Source of the DNA: Flavobacteriales bacterium
GTDB lineage: Bacteria > Bacteroidota > Bacteroidia > Flavobacteriales_C > GCA-002722245
Reading direction: 5' to 3'
NCBI GenBank assembly: GCA_002722245.1
Contig: PBLA01000021.1
Location: 62,001 to 126,000, forward strand
Length of the DNA: 64,000 bases
Every line of letters starts with the position of its first letter. Within the stretch, counting starts at the first letter, position 1. A program made the translations under genes and the position numbers. Shown piece after piece: positions 32,316 through 47,312 of the stretch. Under the pieces are notes generated by a model. It saw only the letters and a list, made by a program, of their open reading frames with translations, had not been told where the DNA came from and did no database searches.

Positions 32316-33539
32316 CTAGAAACTGAATTTTAAACCTGTATAAATGTCAAGTGCGGAACTTTGGTTTGGGAATATAGCACCAAGAATATTATTAGTTCCT
32401 ACTTGTAGTTTGATTAACTTATTGATGTAAAGATCTCCGTTTATTCCTGCTTGAAATCCACTGTATCCTCCGTATGCAATAGTAGCGCCCGGACTAAAAA
32501 CAGATGATTTTAAATAAAGTCCAGCTCGGAAAAATGGCGTATAATTCACTAAAAACCGATGTTTAAGGAAAAGATCAAATTCAAATTTTTCAAATTGACC
32601 GTTATAATAAAGAGAAATATTAAGGGGTAATGATTTAAACTTATTTGCTACTTGAGTTTCTACGAAACTATCCACTGACGAAACTTGATTTAAAACAGAG
32701 TCTGAAAATTGAAAAATATCTCCAACTTCAATTCCTTCAAAAGAGAAGGTGGTGTCAAGGTTAGCATGTGTTACATTATTCCAGAGAATTCCTCCAATGT
32801 TTTCAACGGAGCAAAGGAATGTATAGGAGGATGATTGCCGGGCATAGTGGATGTCAAATTTAGATCCAAGGCCCTTATTAAGACTTGTATTAACGGAATC
32901 AGATCGCTCAAGTGAGCTCTTCTTCAAACGAATATCAATATAATCTCCATTTTCTTCTGTAAATATAGATCCAGAACCAACTTCAAAATCTGAAAAGCCA
33001 TGTCCAACTAACAACGCTGCATCAATCCATATACTTGAATTACCGGTTTTCTGTATACGCTTAAACCCATAAGAGCCTTCTATGTAAGAGTAAGAGATAG
33101 ATTTAAATGATGTTTCATTTAATGAAAGAGACTGACCAGAAAATGGTTGGTTTCCATAAAAAACCAGGTTGAAAAAGTCTTTGGTGAAATTTAGGTTTCC
33201 TTCGAACTGTGTCCCGAGACTCAAACCATAAAAAAACTGTGTTTTTGATTCTTTTTTCCTTTTGAAATTAAATAGAGCAGTAAGATTTCCTCCTAACTCG
33301 CCTCCAAAGAGATTAGTGGAAGATAATTGCTCAGATGCAGCATCTTTTAATTCATTATTGATGTAGTCAGGGAAAATAAATTTATTTAAAAATGCTTGCG
33401 GGAGCTTAGTTGAACCAACTCCACCAATGGCGTTAAAAACAATCTGATTTGTTGAATCTGGCACAACGAAATTGTTTTGCGCGTATATACTGGTCATACT
33501 TAATCCAAGTATATAAAATAGAATAACGAGCTTTTTCAT
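32316..33539 (-). CDS. Predicted outer-membrane beta-barrel protein
   Basis: A 407-residue protein with a signal peptide (MKKLVILFYILGLSMTSIYA) and then alternating beta-strand patterns through to a C-terminal DIYTGLKFSF, ending in Phe like many outer-membrane barrels. It resembles the DUF5723-type Bacteroidota barrel proteins, but I cannot assign the family firmly. It follows a large lipoprotein gene by 11 bases and is almost certainly its partner. The function is unknown; surface display or a transport complex is possible. Confidence 0.7.
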   Translation of the reverse strand: MKKLVILFYILGLSMTSIYAQNNFVVPDSTNQIVFNAIGGVGSTKLPQAFLNKFIFPDYINNELKDAASEQLSSTNLFGGELGGNLTALFNFKRKKESKTQFFYGLSLGTQFEGNLNFTKDFFNLVFYGNQPFSGQSLSLNETSFKSISYSYIEGSYGFKRIQKTGNSSIWIDAALLVGHGFSDFEVGSGSIFTEENGDYIDIRLKKSSLERSDSVNTSLNKGLGSKFDIHYARQSSSYTFLCSVENIGGILWNNVTHANLDTTFSFEGIEVGDIFQFSDSVLNQVSSVDSFVETQVANKFKSLPLNISLYYNGQFEKFEFDLFLKHRFLVNYTPFFRAGLYLKSSVFSPGATIAYGGYSGFQAGINGDLYINKLIKLQVGTNNILGAIFPNQSSALDIYTGLKFSF

Positions 33540-33550
33540 ATAAATAAAGG

Positions 33551-35710
33551 TTAGTTAGAGAACTGATATTTAAAGTCTCCAACTAGTTTTACACCAAAGG
33601 AGTAGTGACTGTATATTTTATAATATTCTTTTTCGGGATTAGTGATGTCAAAAGTGTGGAACCCTGCCTCAATGTATAGTTTTGATGCTAATTGTATATT
33701 TTCCATTTGTTCTTTTGATATTTCAAATTCGATCACACTTTGAACTGGACTAGAAACCACTCCTGAATTGTTAACAGTTCCTCTTGTAATAGTTTGGTCA
33801 ATCCATAGGGAGTCAATAATTAATCCTGTTTCATCCATAAAATAAAGCGATGTATTTGCATCAAATGGAAAGCCATTGTTTACTAATAGTTTGAATTTTC
33901 CGCTTTCAACTTCATTATCATTGTTTGTATTTAAATTAAAATCTAGCGTATCAACTAATACGAGAGAGTCTGTCACAATAGAAAGAGGTATTTCCATATT
34001 TAAACGTGCTTTTACTTCATCCAAATAGTGAATGAAGTTAGGGGGAGTGTCATTTTCTACAATGGCTCTCTCACCAGGGTTGGGAACATTGGCATTTAAT
34101 TCAACATTTACATTATAACTGATTTCTTTTGGTAAATTCTCAATAAAATCATCAATGTTTGAATTATTTGGATCAAGTGATTTTGTGGTAGTAATATGTT
34201 CTGTTCGGTAGTTTTCAATATCCCCCTGGTATTTTGCGGAATTAATTTCCATTGTTTCATTTCCCATGAAATCAAGTAAAACTTCCTCTCCTTTAAAGTT
34301 GGTTCCTTTGACTTCTAAAAACTCTGCCTCAGCGGATCCACCAATACCATTGTCAACTTCAATTTCAAAATTCACGTCCTCAATATCAAACTGTCCGGAT
34401 TTGATTTGGTTAAATGCTTCAAATGACACAACCGATGGACCCGAGCTTACAATTTTATTATTTAAAAATCCACTTGCGTGAGTTGGCAGCAAATCACGAA
34501 CTTGCGCTTTAACATAAAGTCTGTCACTAAGTGATATTCGTTTTTTCTCACCGGTGTATTTTATTTTTGCGGTTAATTTGGTGACATACTTGTTTATTTC
34601 GTCATCGTCTAAGGTAGGGGTACTATATCCAAGACCATTAAAGGTAAAGTGATAACCTGTCATAGGGTATGATTTTATAAGAGTTGTCCTATTTCCTTCA
34701 CTTGAATCAGTACTTGGAGGCACGACTACATCAACTGAAAATGTATCAACATCGTCTTTAACAAGGTTGGGAATGGTATATGTTAGAAAGATAGAATCAT
34801 TTATGGTGGATTCAATTTCAAAGTATAATTCACCACCCCTGATAGTAGCTTCTTTGAAGTCAATTGTCACATTTGATGCAAAGGGAACCTCATCTGTTAC
34901 CTCGATTATATTTTGATCGGGCCATACAGCAATAGCTTCGGAAGGTTTAATTTCTTTAACAATAATTTTAGCTGAAATATACTCAGAGGTGTCTATAATT
35001 GTCACTCCTGCAATAAGATTAACGCTTACGTTTAAATTAATTATTTGCCCAACAAGATCGGATAAAATTACTGTGCCGCTATCCAAAGAATAGGTTTCGC
35101 TTATAGTGCTACCCTTAGCGAGAGAAGAGTATGTGTCGCTGATTAATAGATCGCCTCCCGGTTGAGGAGCGTTACCTAATTGAAATTGAATATTTGTTAA
35201 GTCATATTGCATTTCATTAGATAATACAACTTCGGCAACTCCTGTATCCAAGGTTAATTCATCAAAAAGTTCAACCATTGAAAAATCAAAAGATTCGCCG
35301 CTCACTTCGATTGATGTTGATGCAGAAAATGGAGAAGGTGATCCATGTAGATTGTACAAGGCTTGAATAATGAAATTATCAGAATTTCTCATTATTTCTC
35401 CCATAGTTATTCTAACCTCTATGGTGTCATTAGGAAGTTCAAGATTTTCTAAACTTGCACTTAATTCGAAAGTAGTATCTGGAAGTTGCGCAAAGCTATC
35501 TGTTGTTATCGAAAACAACTCTGAAGAATAAACAATCTTTAGGCTACTGTCTTCATTAGCTATGACGTTTTCTGATTGTAAAAGTTCTTCAACCGTTAAT
35601 TCTGAATTTACAAGAGGTGCAGTCATGTTGGTATCCCATGTGGTGTATTTATCTCTTTTACAAGAAATAAGAATACTGCAAATCAATATCAGGCAGGAAA
35701 AATTTTTCAT
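33551..35710 (-). CDS. Large beta-rich lipoprotein
   Basis: From ATG at 35710 the protein has 719 residues. The signal (MKNFSCLILICSILISC) has lipobox LISC and an acylated Cys near residue 17. A longer reading frame from 35755 would add 15 residues before the signal; the 35710 start is favoured because a perfect TATTTTTG element sits exactly four bases upstream. The body is Ser/Thr/Asp-rich beta-sandwich-like sequence with no catalytic motif, resembling surface adhesin or structural lipoproteins. It is co-transcribed with the downstream barrel gene. Confidence 0.75.
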   Translation of the reverse strand: MKNFSCLILICSILISCKRDKYTTWDTNMTAPLVNSELTVEELLQSENVIANEDSSLKIVYSSELFSITTDSFAQLPDTTFELSASLENLELPNDTIEVRITMGEIMRNSDNFIIQALYNLHGSPSPFSASTSIEVSGESFDFSMVELFDELTLDTGVAEVVLSNEMQYDLTNIQFQLGNAPQPGGDLLISDTYSSLAKGSTISETYSLDSGTVILSDLVGQIINLNVSVNLIAGVTIIDTSEYISAKIIVKEIKPSEAIAVWPDQNIIEVTDEVPFASNVTIDFKEATIRGGELYFEIESTINDSIFLTYTIPNLVKDDVDTFSVDVVVPPSTDSSEGNRTTLIKSYPMTGYHFTFNGLGYSTPTLDDDEINKYVTKLTAKIKYTGEKKRISLSDRLYVKAQVRDLLPTHASGFLNNKIVSSGPSVVSFEAFNQIKSGQFDIEDVNFEIEVDNGIGGSAEAEFLEVKGTNFKGEEVLLDFMGNETMEINSAKYQGDIENYRTEHITTTKSLDPNNSNIDDFIENLPKEISYNVNVELNANVPNPGERAIVENDTPPNFIHYLDEVKARLNMEIPLSIVTDSLVLVDTLDFNLNTNNDNEVESGKFKLLVNNGFPFDANTSLYFMDETGLIIDSLWIDQTITRGTVNNSGVVSSPVQSVIEFEISKEQMENIQLASKLYIEAGFHTFDITNPEKEYYKIYSHYSFGVKLVGDFKYQFSN

Positions 35711-35722: not shown

Positions 35723-35808
35723 AGGGTTTAGGGTGGTTTTGTAAAGTGTTCCCATGACGCTATGGTTTGCTTTTAGTTGCTTTGCATGAGAAATGAATTT
35801 TTTAAGAG

Positions 35809-44192: not shown

Positions 44193-44849
44193 CTATCGAA
44201 CAAGTTCAATAATGCCTTGTTGTTCAAATAAATACCCTGTTCTATATGTTCCTGAAATGTAGTAGTTGTAGCTCCCAGAAGGAAGTTGATTGCCTTCAAA
44301 GGATCCATCAAATAATGTGTTATAAGACTCACTCTCAAACAATACATTATTCATATCGTCACTAACTCTCACATAAAAGTCAGAAACGCCTACAAGTATA
44401 GGGAACCAGGTGTCAAATTGATTGTCTGCATCAGGGGTAAACGAAGTAGGCACATCAATATAAGTATCACAATATTCAAGCGTTATGTAAATAGAAGAAT
44501 CTTTTTCGCCTACACCAGGAGTTTCTTGCTCAATATCCAGGCGATAGTTCCCTCTTAAAGAGGTAGTAAATATGGAATCTGATGATAAGAATTTATATTC
44601 TTCGTTACCAACAGAGCGATACCATTCGTGTTTCGATACAGAAGGTTCATAGCCAACTAATTTCACAAAGTTATTTTGATAAAAACATTCACGAATATCC
44701 GTTGAATTAGACAAAACATGAATAGGAGTTGTAGTCGCTTCAAAAATTGGTGATAATTTTTTTGCTTCCACCGGATTATCCTTCAAATTATCGTTTGAGC
44801 ATGAAAAAAAAAGCAAAAAAATATGGAAAAGAGGAATGAGCTTTTTCAT
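44193..44849 (-). CDS. Lipoprotein with a T9SS type-B-like (CHU_C) C-terminal domain
   Basis: A 218-residue protein. The signal MKKLIPLFHIFLLFFSC gives an acylated Cys17. The C-terminal 85 residues follow the CHU_C order: VPTSFTPDADNQFDTWFPI, then FYVRVSDDMNNVLFES, LPSGSYNYYISG and a closing GIIELVR. CHU_C domains normally direct soluble proteins through T9SS; here the same module is on a lipoprotein. The start codon overlaps the stop of the preceding barrel/anti-sigma-like gene by one base. It is probably the surface or periplasmic partner of that barrel. Confidence 0.8.
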   Translation of the reverse strand: MKKLIPLFHIFLLFFSCSNDNLKDNPVEAKKLSPIFEATTTPIHVLSNSTDIRECFYQNNFVKLVGYEPSVSKHEWYRSVGNEEYKFLSSDSIFTTSLRGNYRLDIEQETPGVGEKDSSIYITLEYCDTYIDVPTSFTPDADNQFDTWFPILVGVSDFYVRVSDDMNNVLFESESYNTLFDGSFEGNQLPSGSYNYYISGTYRTGYLFEQQGIIELVR

Positions 44850-46603
44850 TAAAATTTATAGTTAACCCCTCCAGATAAATATCCTTTTTTTTCTGTGAAG
44901 TTATTTATGTTTATTGTATTTCTTTGGAGGTTTTTGGTGTTTTTTCTGTTGTATGTAAATTGAAATCTAATTCGATTAACATGCTGGTATCCAACAGTTA
45001 TATTTTTATTTAAAAGACTTTCATATTCTAATGCCGAAAAAAATTGATTGTTGTATGTAAGACCAATTCCCGGACTATATGAATTAAATAATTCGTGTTC
45101 ATATTTGAGTAATAGGCTTGTTTTGAATTTTGCTATTTCAGGAGTATGAATTGCGGAGACAATTGTATGTTTTTGATTGGTTAATTCATGTTCGTTAGTG
45201 AAACTGTATGCTAACATATTATTTCTATTGTACCCTATGTAAAAGCTTCGATGATTTAAGAAAACACCAAAATCCATTGTAGTATATTGCTCTTGTTGAG
45301 ACTTGAAGCTACCAAGGTTAGTTTGATGGATGTATTCACCAATAAGTGATTGTTCTCTTAACGTTAACTGATTTACTGCTAATTGATCACTATTGAAGTT
45401 TACTGCCAAACCTGTTTTTAAATCAAGTTGATTTAAAATATTTTTAGTAAAACTAATCGAAACATTTCCTTTTCGGTTGTTCCAGTTTTCCTTCAATTCA
45501 TACTGATAAAACCCTCCAATTGCGAAATAAGGGTTTAATCGTCGCTCAAAAGCAGCAATATATGTTAAGGGTTGAACAAAATTGATTTCACCTATTTGAT
45601 TTTGGTCAACATCATTAATTTCCCAATTATTGTGGTAAAAGAATGATGCATTATTATTGGCATACAATCCCGTAATGGAGGAATTTTCCCAAAAGTTTAA
45701 CCAAATTGTTGCTCCAGGATGGATTTGATAACTGCCTTTTGATAAATGATTCAAAGAAATTTTATGAATTGAAAGATCAAGAGAAGTACAATATTCTTGA
45801 ATAGGGAAATTTTCAAGCTGAATAAGTAGGTCGTAAGGATACTCTTGTGAGTTATTCGAGGTATTTATCAAGTCTACATCATTTTGCTTTTGAATACCAA
45901 CAGGAATGAATTCTTTAGTTGTCCTTGTATTTTGGGGAGTGAAAGAATTCTGTACGTTTTCTTCATGATTTTTTGGTGGTAGGTTATTATCCAATGAAAT
46001 CACATCAACGTTAGAGGGTATTGTTATAGGGTTAATTATTTGATTTATTTCAGAGCTCGTATTTTTATTGTGGGTTTTTGAAGTGATCACAGGATTTTCA
46101 GAATCCTTTAGCAAAGAATCAATTCCTAGTCCAGTACCTATTAGAATTAATATCGCCGCAGCCCCTCTTAACATCTTTTTCATAATACTTCGTCGGCGAA
46201 GGGTTTTTTCCAAAGCAGCCCAATGAGAGGGGTTATAATTTAATTTCCCATTATTGAAAACAGATCTTAAAATTCGTTCTAATGGAGTTAACTTGGACAA
46301 TTCTAACTGCTCAACTAAATTTTCCCAATGCTGTGCATTATATTTAAATGTGTCACTATTTAGCTTCTCTTTAAGCTTTTGTTCAAAATTTGATTTAGAA
46401 TTGTACTTGTCGTTGAATTCGTCCCATGCATTGGGGGGAGTTTCCACGGAACCTTCATTCAATTTGTCATTAATCTCATTTTCAAAAGGGGTATGAGGAG
46501 GGTTAGAAGATAGATTTTGGTTCATCTTCTCCCAGTCTGAAGGGTTGTAATTCATCTCACCTTCTTGTAGTTTCTTTCTTATTTCGTCCTCAAAGTCTCC
46601 CAT
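44849..46603 (-). CDS. Dual-membrane-spanning anti-sigma-like protein (repeats, inner-membrane helix, PorP/SprF-like barrel)
   Basis: A 584-residue protein in three parts. Residues 4-134 hold four copies of a motif FExxIxxKLxxGxxxYNPxxWexL, with tryptophans at 24, 60, 93 and 128. A basic stretch (RRRSIMKKMLR) precedes one helix (about 147-166). An Asn/Ser-rich periplasmic linker (170-265) leads to a beta-barrel-like region from about 270, ending in the outer-membrane-type GGVNYKF. The barrel resembles PorP/SprF of T9SS. It starts five bases after an ECF sigma gene, so an anti-sigma role is inferred. This architecture matches the dual-membrane-spanning anti-sigma (Dma) proteins known from Bacteroides. 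Confidence 0.75.
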   Translation of the reverse strand: MGDFEDEIRKKLQEGEMNYNPSDWEKMNQNLSSNPPHTPFENEINDKLNEGSVETPPNAWDEFNDKYNSKSNFEQKLKEKLNSDTFKYNAQHWENLVEQLELSKLTPLERILRSVFNNGKLNYNPSHWAALEKTLRRRSIMKKMLRGAAAILILIGTGLGIDSLLKDSENPVITSKTHNKNTSSEINQIINPITIPSNVDVISLDNNLPPKNHEENVQNSFTPQNTRTTKEFIPVGIQKQNDVDLINTSNNSQEYPYDLLIQLENFPIQEYCTSLDLSIHKISLNHLSKGSYQIHPGATIWLNFWENSSITGLYANNNASFFYHNNWEINDVDQNQIGEINFVQPLTYIAAFERRLNPYFAIGGFYQYELKENWNNRKGNVSISFTKNILNQLDLKTGLAVNFNSDQLAVNQLTLREQSLIGEYIHQTNLGSFKSQQEQYTTMDFGVFLNHRSFYIGYNRNNMLAYSFTNEHELTNQKHTIVSAIHTPEIAKFKTSLLLKYEHELFNSYSPGIGLTYNNQFFSALEYESLLNKNITVGYQHVNRIRFQFTYNRKNTKNLQRNTININNFTEKKGYLSGGVNYKF

Positions 46604-46608
46604 AGTGG

Positions 46609-47166
46609 TTAACCTGCTAATTTCTCTACCTTTTCTTTTAGCATTTTACGTAAGTTACCTTTCGCTTTCGCTAAATTGGATTTCGATGTTCCTATACTTA
46701 TTCCTAAAGAATCGGAAATTTCTTGATGAGTAAAGCCATCAACGATATACATATTAAATACACTTCTATAAGCAGGACTTAAAAGTTGAACCATTTGTAT
46801 GAGATCGGAAAAACTTACATGTTCTAATATGCCCGCATCTTCTTCTTGATCTACCTGAATACTTCCATGCTTATCATCCAATTCAACCATTTGGTTGTTT
46901 TTTTTATTTTTTCGAATATGATCAATACAAGTATTTACCATAATTCTACGAACCCATCCTTCAAACGAGCCCTGTTTGCCGTATTTGGGTAAATTCTTAA
47001 ATACCTTAATGAAAGATTCCTGAAACATATCCAGCGCTTCATCATGACCATTTGCGTAACGCATGCAAACTGCTAACATCTTTCCATAAAAATGCTCATA
47101 CAAAGATTGCTGAGCGCGACGATCTCCGTCAATACAACCCTGAATTATGAGGTCTTGGTTCAACAT
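46609..47166 (-). CDS. ECF-type RNA polymerase sigma factor
   Basis: A 185-residue sigma factor with only regions 2 and 4. Region 2 has LYEHFYGKMLAVCMRYANGHDEALDMFQESFIKVF and FEGWVRRIMVNTCIDHIRK; region 4 has LLSPAYRSVFNMYIVDGFTHQEISDSLGISIGTSKSNL. It is the first gene of a three-gene operon with a membrane-spanning anti-sigma-like protein and a lipoprotein. It should redirect RNA polymerase to a dedicated regulon, possibly including its own operon; the target promoter is not known. Confidence 0.93.
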   Translation of the reverse strand: MLNQDLIIQGCIDGDRRAQQSLYEHFYGKMLAVCMRYANGHDEALDMFQESFIKVFKNLPKYGKQGSFEGWVRRIMVNTCIDHIRKNKKNNQMVELDDKHGSIQVDQEEDAGILEHVSFSDLIQMVQLLSPAYRSVFNMYIVDGFTHQEISDSLGISIGTSKSNLAKAKGNLRKMLKEKVEKLAG

Positions 47167-47312
47167 GTTTGAGTAAATATGTTAGTCCTGCTATACATGC
47201 TGACGGATTAAAGACAGAATAGTTGCTGTTCAAATGTAAATATTTTCCAAAAAGTTAACAATATGTTTAAAAATCGATGTTTGAAAGCAAGGCATTTTTT
47301 TGATTATGCCGC

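Follow-up and report, generated by a model that had tools for sequence, protein, structure and literature searches.

An ECF Sigma Factor Gene Adjoining a Predicted Dual-Membrane PorP/SprF-Like Barrel Protein and a CHU_C Lipoprotein in Flavobacteriales

Introduction

Could the state of the cell surface be relayed to a promoter through a single polypeptide chain? The question is raised by three adjacent genes (hereafter the trio) at 44193-47166 on the minus strand of a 64,000-nucleotide stretch of Flavobacteriales DNA, the whole of which we refer to as the window. They encode in this order an ECF sigma factor, a middle protein that appears to span both membranes, and a lipoprotein. Three known systems provide the background. 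Dma2 of Bacteroides thetaiotaomicron consists of an N-terminal anti-sigma region, a membrane helix, a long disordered tether and a C-terminal barrel and is encoded in a three-gene operon (PMC13088901). PorP is a 14-stranded barrel, and PorP/SprF proteins dock type B C-terminal domains (CTDs), as in the SprB-SprF and PG1035-PorP pairs (PMC9143113). PorA, a 246-aa CTD-bearing surface protein of Porphyromonas gingivalis, acts upstream of an ECF sigma factor in the PorA-PorXY-SigP pathway (PMC7712824). The reading of the trio that we favor, and that we consider on balance probable, is that of a one-piece trans-envelope regulator of the Dma type that monitors the status of a surface lipoprotein or surface complex.

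Results and Discussion

Anatomy of the trio

The features of the three genes are as follows.

46609..47166, minus strand: ECF sigma factor, 185 aa (Pfam Sigma70_r2 60.2 bits, r4_2 48 bits)
44849..46603, minus strand: middle protein, 584 aa, with cytoplasmic repeats, inner-membrane helix, linker and PorP/SprF-like outer-membrane barrel
46190..46603, minus strand: four W-motif repeats of the middle protein, at approximately residues 3-32, 39-69, 72-101 and 108-135, the presumed sigma-binding region (repeat profile)
46106..46174, minus strand: predicted inner-membrane helix, residues 144-166, with RRR..KK just ahead (hydropathy and AlphaFold2)
45653..46105, minus strand: predicted disordered periplasmic linker, residues 167-317, ∼150 aa (pLDDT)
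44852..45652, minus strand: PorP/SprF-like beta-barrel, residues 318-584, 14 predicted long strands (PF11751 and AlphaFold2)
44193..44849, minus strand: lipoprotein, 218 aa, with lipobox Cys17, an Ig-like domain and a C-terminal CHU_C (type B) domain (PF13585, 31.5 bits)
44196..44462, minus strand: CHU_C/type B C-terminal domain of the lipoprotein (Pfam, homologue alignment and AlphaFold2)

Both sigma regions 2 and 4 are matched by Pfam in the 185-aa protein, and the Bacteroidota sigma model TIGR02985 gives 84.4 bits against a cut-off of 126.4. The sigma gene is separated from the middle gene by 5 bp and one base is common to the stop codon of the middle gene and the lipoprotein ATG, so that the open reading frames match exactly the gene order and one-base overlap given in a preliminary description of the window. 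The anatomy of the trio, like the candidate set of controlled genes considered below, is well supported.

The four W-repeats of the middle protein score, in order, 33.8, 29.5, 30.9 and 21.5 bits. An AlphaFold2 model built on seven homologues places four helical hairpins at residues 2-138, with low confidence (pLDDT 40-56), followed by a single membrane helix that coincides with the hydropathy peak (residues 147-165, score 1.88). Disorder is predicted over residues 167-295, with pLDDT values of ∼25 across 167-290, and the length of this linker differs between relatives. The C-terminal part is modeled as 14 long strands (residues 318-583), mostly with pLDDT 70-90, and the barrel that the preliminary description had proposed is therefore predicted, together with the remainder of the dual-membrane layout. 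The resemblance to PorP/SprF that it claimed is borne out as well, with PorP_SprF (PF11751) matching residues 334-562 at 46.1 bits (cut-off 22.3) and reaching 70.7 bits in the relative L024. The more specific NCBIfam PorP model TIGR03519 scores 42.9 bits, below its curated cut-off of 90.55. Foldseek matches of the barrel include OmpU, FadL and chain F of a T9SS complex (8gl6) and are otherwise generic barrels; a PDB sequence search with the middle protein gave no match. Judged from these profile scores, the barrel is a divergent PorP/SprF relative, other than the core T9SS PorP.

The predicted order of the parts, beginning with a presumed anti-sigma region, and the position beside an ECF sigma gene are those of the Dma proteins when compared by published domain order. 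The differences are that the barrel here resembles PorP/SprF, in contrast to the generic OMP barrel of the Dma proteins, that four or five tandem W-repeats are found in the trio family in place of one or two, and that a CHU_C lipoprotein is present as a partner. The Dma sigma factors belong to the ECF21 group, whereas the sigma factor encoded directly upstream here is placed only as ECF.

The lipoprotein is predicted to fold, behind its lipobox, into two beta-sandwich domains (pLDDT 85), for which a fold search returned only generic Ig/FnIII folds. CHU_C (PF13585) matches residues 132-200 with 31.5 bits against a cut-off of 27, in keeping with the type B domain noted earlier, and the homologue L022 scores 25.8, slightly under the same cut-off. 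TIGR04131, the NCBIfam type B model, reaches 31.9 bits (cut-off 35). It is because the NCBIfam PorP and type B models both match below their cut-offs that we describe barrel and type B domain alike as divergent members. The protein ends in GIIELVR, and Cys17 of the lipobox, Cys55 and Cys127 are unchanged across 11 homologues.

The W-repeat domain as a sigma partner

The W-unit is ∼33 residues long and has the pattern F-E-x5-L-x6-Y-N-x2-H-W-x6-L. Four copies occur in the window protein and in most of its relatives and five in L024, while most other proteins of the W-domain type carry one or two; L031 has six, mostly weak matches. Outside the family we gathered 39 W-domain proteins by profile similarity of the N-terminal region alone, and in each of the 39 cases the gene immediately preceding it on the same strand encodes an ECF sigma factor. 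Such regularity amounts to strong genomic evidence for the W-domain as a sigma partner. The module at the C-terminus varies, being an OMP barrel (over or near the PF13568/PF13505 cut-offs), PKD-CHU_C or CHU_C alone, or absent. CHU_C, with or without PKD, is above cut-off in all six proteins scanned and is found at 14 loci by local profile, seven W-domain proteins have no barrel, and in two of these (L044, L045) a separate PorP gene follows; these CHU_C and PorP tallies use profiles built here from the examined loci, with a Pfam check for selected members.

The chains in which a W-domain is followed by a membrane helix, often PKD, and CHU_C, all encoded behind an ECF sigma gene (L038, L043, L055, L057, L064, L065, L066, L088-L092, L094, L099), represent anti-sigma-like proteins of the inner membrane that bear a type IX sorting domain, and a large CHU_C protein is usually encoded next. 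Those that include PKD (for example L065, L064 and L088) share with the trio the sigma group, the N-terminal domain and the involvement of CHU_C, but have no barrel, CHU_C itself ending the anti-sigma-like chain.

It might be supposed that the middle protein does not control the sigma factor at all, the genes being merely co-transcribed and the barrel and lipoprotein forming a surface receptor that the sigma factor regulates. Pairs of this kind do exist without a sigma gene, as described below. This explanation must nevertheless contend with the ECF gene that precedes the W-domain in 39 of 39 independent proteins, whichever C-terminal module follows, and we regard it as very improbable.

Conservation of the trio and origin of its outer-membrane module

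Full-length relatives of the middle protein are confined, in the genomes searched, to the window's own family, where they occupy eight loci in two genera; a scan of genome contigs returned the same seven other family loci and none further. Named records among them are metagenome-assembled ("Flavobacteriales bacterium" and similar). The family f1 locus of G007 is also present on a contig labeled Chryseobacterium gleum (L074), whose record title is probably that of a mislabeled metagenome bin. At one locus (G008, L026:4861-6817) the middle gene is present as two open reading frames, with a break in the linker around masked bases that is either real or an effect of assembly or masking.

The order sigma factor, middle protein, CHU_C lipoprotein is kept at all eight loci, so that a search for co-occurrence, as proposed in the preliminary description, finds a sigma gene next to every full-length homologue. 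Since the genes that flank the trio on both sides change from one genus to the other, the linkage is more than chance. Identities to the window proteins at the seven other loci are 61-86% for the sigma factor, 20-41% for the middle protein and 29-50% for the lipoprotein, a pattern that we read as one of constant output and fast-changing surface parts.

Barrel and lipoprotein also occur on their own. In five other families we found 12 pairs in which a small CHU_C lipoprotein of the trio's lipoprotein family accompanies a divergent PorP barrel and which are sigma-free as judged within the flanks examined, some contigs ending near the pair (L068-L070, L080, L081 twice, L083, L084, L085 twice, L086, L087); the pairs are sometimes in tandem. 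When 47 barrels were placed in a tree, the 20 that have a companion CHU_C lipoprotein all fell on one side of a 100/98 split, a clade that includes the window family, the sigma-free pairs and the barrel of L082 (family f5), where the full trio layout is found again with a single W-repeat; the finer branching order is uncertain and some branches are long. Because the paired barrels form one clade and also occur without a sigma gene, the most likely origin of the trio is that a barrel-lipoprotein pair already in existence was joined to a sigma/anti-sigma chassis. That the pair is widespread without sigma also makes the lipoprotein look like the dedicated partner of the barrel. Two sets of apparent further fusions were rejected. 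The long PorP open reading frames of L108-L114 (family f5) encode PorP barrels that are extended at the C-terminus, and they lack a sigma gene, and the 555-aa PorP frame of L046 (G060:C17) overlaps a CHU_C gene and has neither a membrane helix nor a sigma gene.

These data bear on a second alternative, namely that the protein is an assembly sensor like the classic Dma proteins, its barrel reporting on BAM or on outer-membrane insertion, with the lipoprotein as a regulated cargo and CHU_C having no role in sensing. In other genomes the same N-terminal chassis does bear unrelated OMP_b-brl barrels, and vesiculation is controlled by Dma1 and Dma2 (PMC13088901), both of which would fit. Yet the lipoprotein partner is limited to one PorP sub-clade, with or without sigma, and is retained at 8/8 family loci, from which we conclude that barrel and lipoprotein are a functional pair; an assembly sensor of this sort appears to us quite unlikely. 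In having a PF11751 barrel and a CHU_C-bearing partner encoded next door, the pair resembles SprB-SprF and PG1035-PorP. It differs from them in that the barrel of the trio shares its chain with a cytoplasmic and inner-membrane part and that its partner is a small lipoprotein, theirs being a large adhesin.

Promoter element and candidate regulon

Two copies of an ECF-type promoter element are found in the window.

47202..47227, minus strand: promoter element AGCAACTATTCTGTCTTTAATCCGTC, 36 bp ahead of the sigma ATG (conservation)
35756..35781, minus strand: second copy, ahead of a lipoprotein gene (ATG 35710), a candidate regulon member

The pattern RGCAACY-N15-CGTC, or a close variant of it, occupies the same position at all eight family loci and is exact in six. 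A CGT-type −10 box is expected for ECF promoters, as for SM6 of F. psychrophilum (PMC9723704), and the trio element has such a box. We searched the eight genomes for the exact pattern, obtaining 34 sites as compared with 26 for a reversed control pattern; this count is not clearly above the control, and it is only placement that is informative. Two of the 34 sites lie inside long open reading frames, as against 21 of the 26 control sites (Fisher p 1.6e-9), 23 are followed by an ATG within 70 bp, as against none (Fisher p 1.4e-8), and at 13 the next gene encodes a lipoprotein, again as against none of the controls (Fisher p 2.5e-4). With the six trio promoters that helped to define the motif removed (n=28), 2 sites are inside frames, 17 before an ATG and 13 before lipoproteins.

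The genes behind the second copy in the window encode a 719-aa lipoprotein (33551-35710) and what is probably an outer-membrane protein of 407 aa (32316-33539); Pfam gives no match for either. In each of the five genomes from the second genus (L117, L118, L121, L136, L141) the element precedes the gene of an orthologous lipoprotein of ∼260 aa, for which the one member scanned gave no Pfam match. Other candidate targets are a PKD lipoprotein and two T9SS-tail proteins. That this regulon belongs to the sigma factor of the trio is something we infer, because other ECF factors may use the same element.

What the chain may report on

The preliminary description suggested a sensor of CHU_C-domain occupancy or of T9SS traffic. 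As a traffic sensor the barrel would detect CHU_C domains in transit, with foreign type B cargo in competition with the lipoprotein, and report the secretion load to the sigma factor. Several observations are in accord with this suggestion. Type B CTDs are bound by PorP-like barrels (PMC9143113), the T9SS translocon protein SprA is encoded in the same genome, combinations of anti-sigma modules with PorP and with CHU_C recur, T9SS sorting domains are present on some members of the candidate regulon, and PorA provides a precedent. Against it, the occurrence of the barrel-lipoprotein pair without sigma argues for a private partner over general cargo, the trio operon has no gene for a large type B cargo, and the candidate regulon is made up mostly of lipoproteins and not of T9SS machinery; its composition indicates that envelope-lipoprotein status is at issue at least as much as T9SS traffic. 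A further consideration is the route to the surface. C-x-K-(D/E)2 is a surface-export motif of Bacteroidota lipoproteins (PMC5080379), and it is present in several lipoproteins from the sigma-free pairs, which suggests that these may reach the surface without the T9SS, their CHU_C domain serving as a docking plug. The motif is weak in the window's lipoprotein (CSNDNLKD). On account of these motifs and of the lipoprotein-rich regulon we favor a sensor of surface-lipoprotein status over a general sensor of T9SS traffic, which we consider unlikely.

A sensor of surface-lipoprotein status could operate as follows. The cytoplasmic W-repeats would keep the ECF sigma factor inactive. The same chain is predicted to pass the inner membrane once and to continue through a flexible periplasmic linker to the PorP/SprF-like barrel in the outer membrane. 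The lipoprotein would dock on this barrel via CHU_C, most likely at the cell surface, as the history of the module and the examples of SprB-SprF and PG1035-PorP suggest. A change in the docked state, because the lipoprotein fails to arrive or because its Ig-like domain binds a ligand, would then be relayed along the chain and free the sigma factor, which, from the conservation of the promoter, is predicted to transcribe its own operon and a lipoprotein-rich regulon with some T9SS cargo. As the docking lipoprotein is a product of the operon itself, such a loop can switch itself off.

A second PorP-sigma fusion

The genome of the window holds another system of related design. At 7223-13816 of L030 (G000:C5:60000-78000) a different ECF gene is followed by one for a 571-aa anti-sigma-like/PorP fusion, whose N-terminus is unrelated to the W-domain and which has a helix at residues 77-95 and a PorP barrel (75.3 bits); downstream are a PorP gene and then the gene of a 1085-aa CHU_C protein. 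Relatives of this type are found across the window's family and in G194 (L047). Their barrels form a separate clade (100/99), and the trio promoter element is absent ahead of their sigma genes. With an unrelated N-terminus, a barrel clade of its own and no trio promoter element, this system indicates that the link between PorP and sigma evolved at least twice.

Concluding Remarks

Dma proteins, the docking of type B domains by PorP and a CTD protein upstream of a sigma factor (PorA) are already known; the wiring of PorP or CHU_C to a sigma factor appears to be new, as had been surmised at the outset, and in the open-access literature we found no paper in which an anti-sigma factor is connected with PorP/SprF or CHU_C. 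It may be, and we put this forward tentatively, that a direct connection of ECF sigma factors to type IX secretion modules has arisen repeatedly in Bacteroidota, either through a PorP barrel (the trio, L082 and the second system) or through CHU_C on the anti-sigma chain, and that these systems form a class of trans-envelope signaling, so far undescribed, that is coupled to secretion or to the surface and has a promoter and a lipoprotein regulon of its own.

In the sensing of surface state and of type IX secretion by Bacteroidota, the link from PorA to PorXY-SigP in P. gingivalis is missing. PorA acts through a two-component system, with no PorP-like barrel leading to the sigma factor, whereas in the trio a single chain could bridge this gap. 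A direct connection of the sigma factor to a PorP-like barrel that has a CHU_C partner would provide a physical route from the outside to a promoter within that chain, and the promoter-defined lipoprotein regulon renders the connection between sigma factor and barrel testable. If it is true, PorP-like barrels, known as anchors of cargo, would gain a role in signaling.
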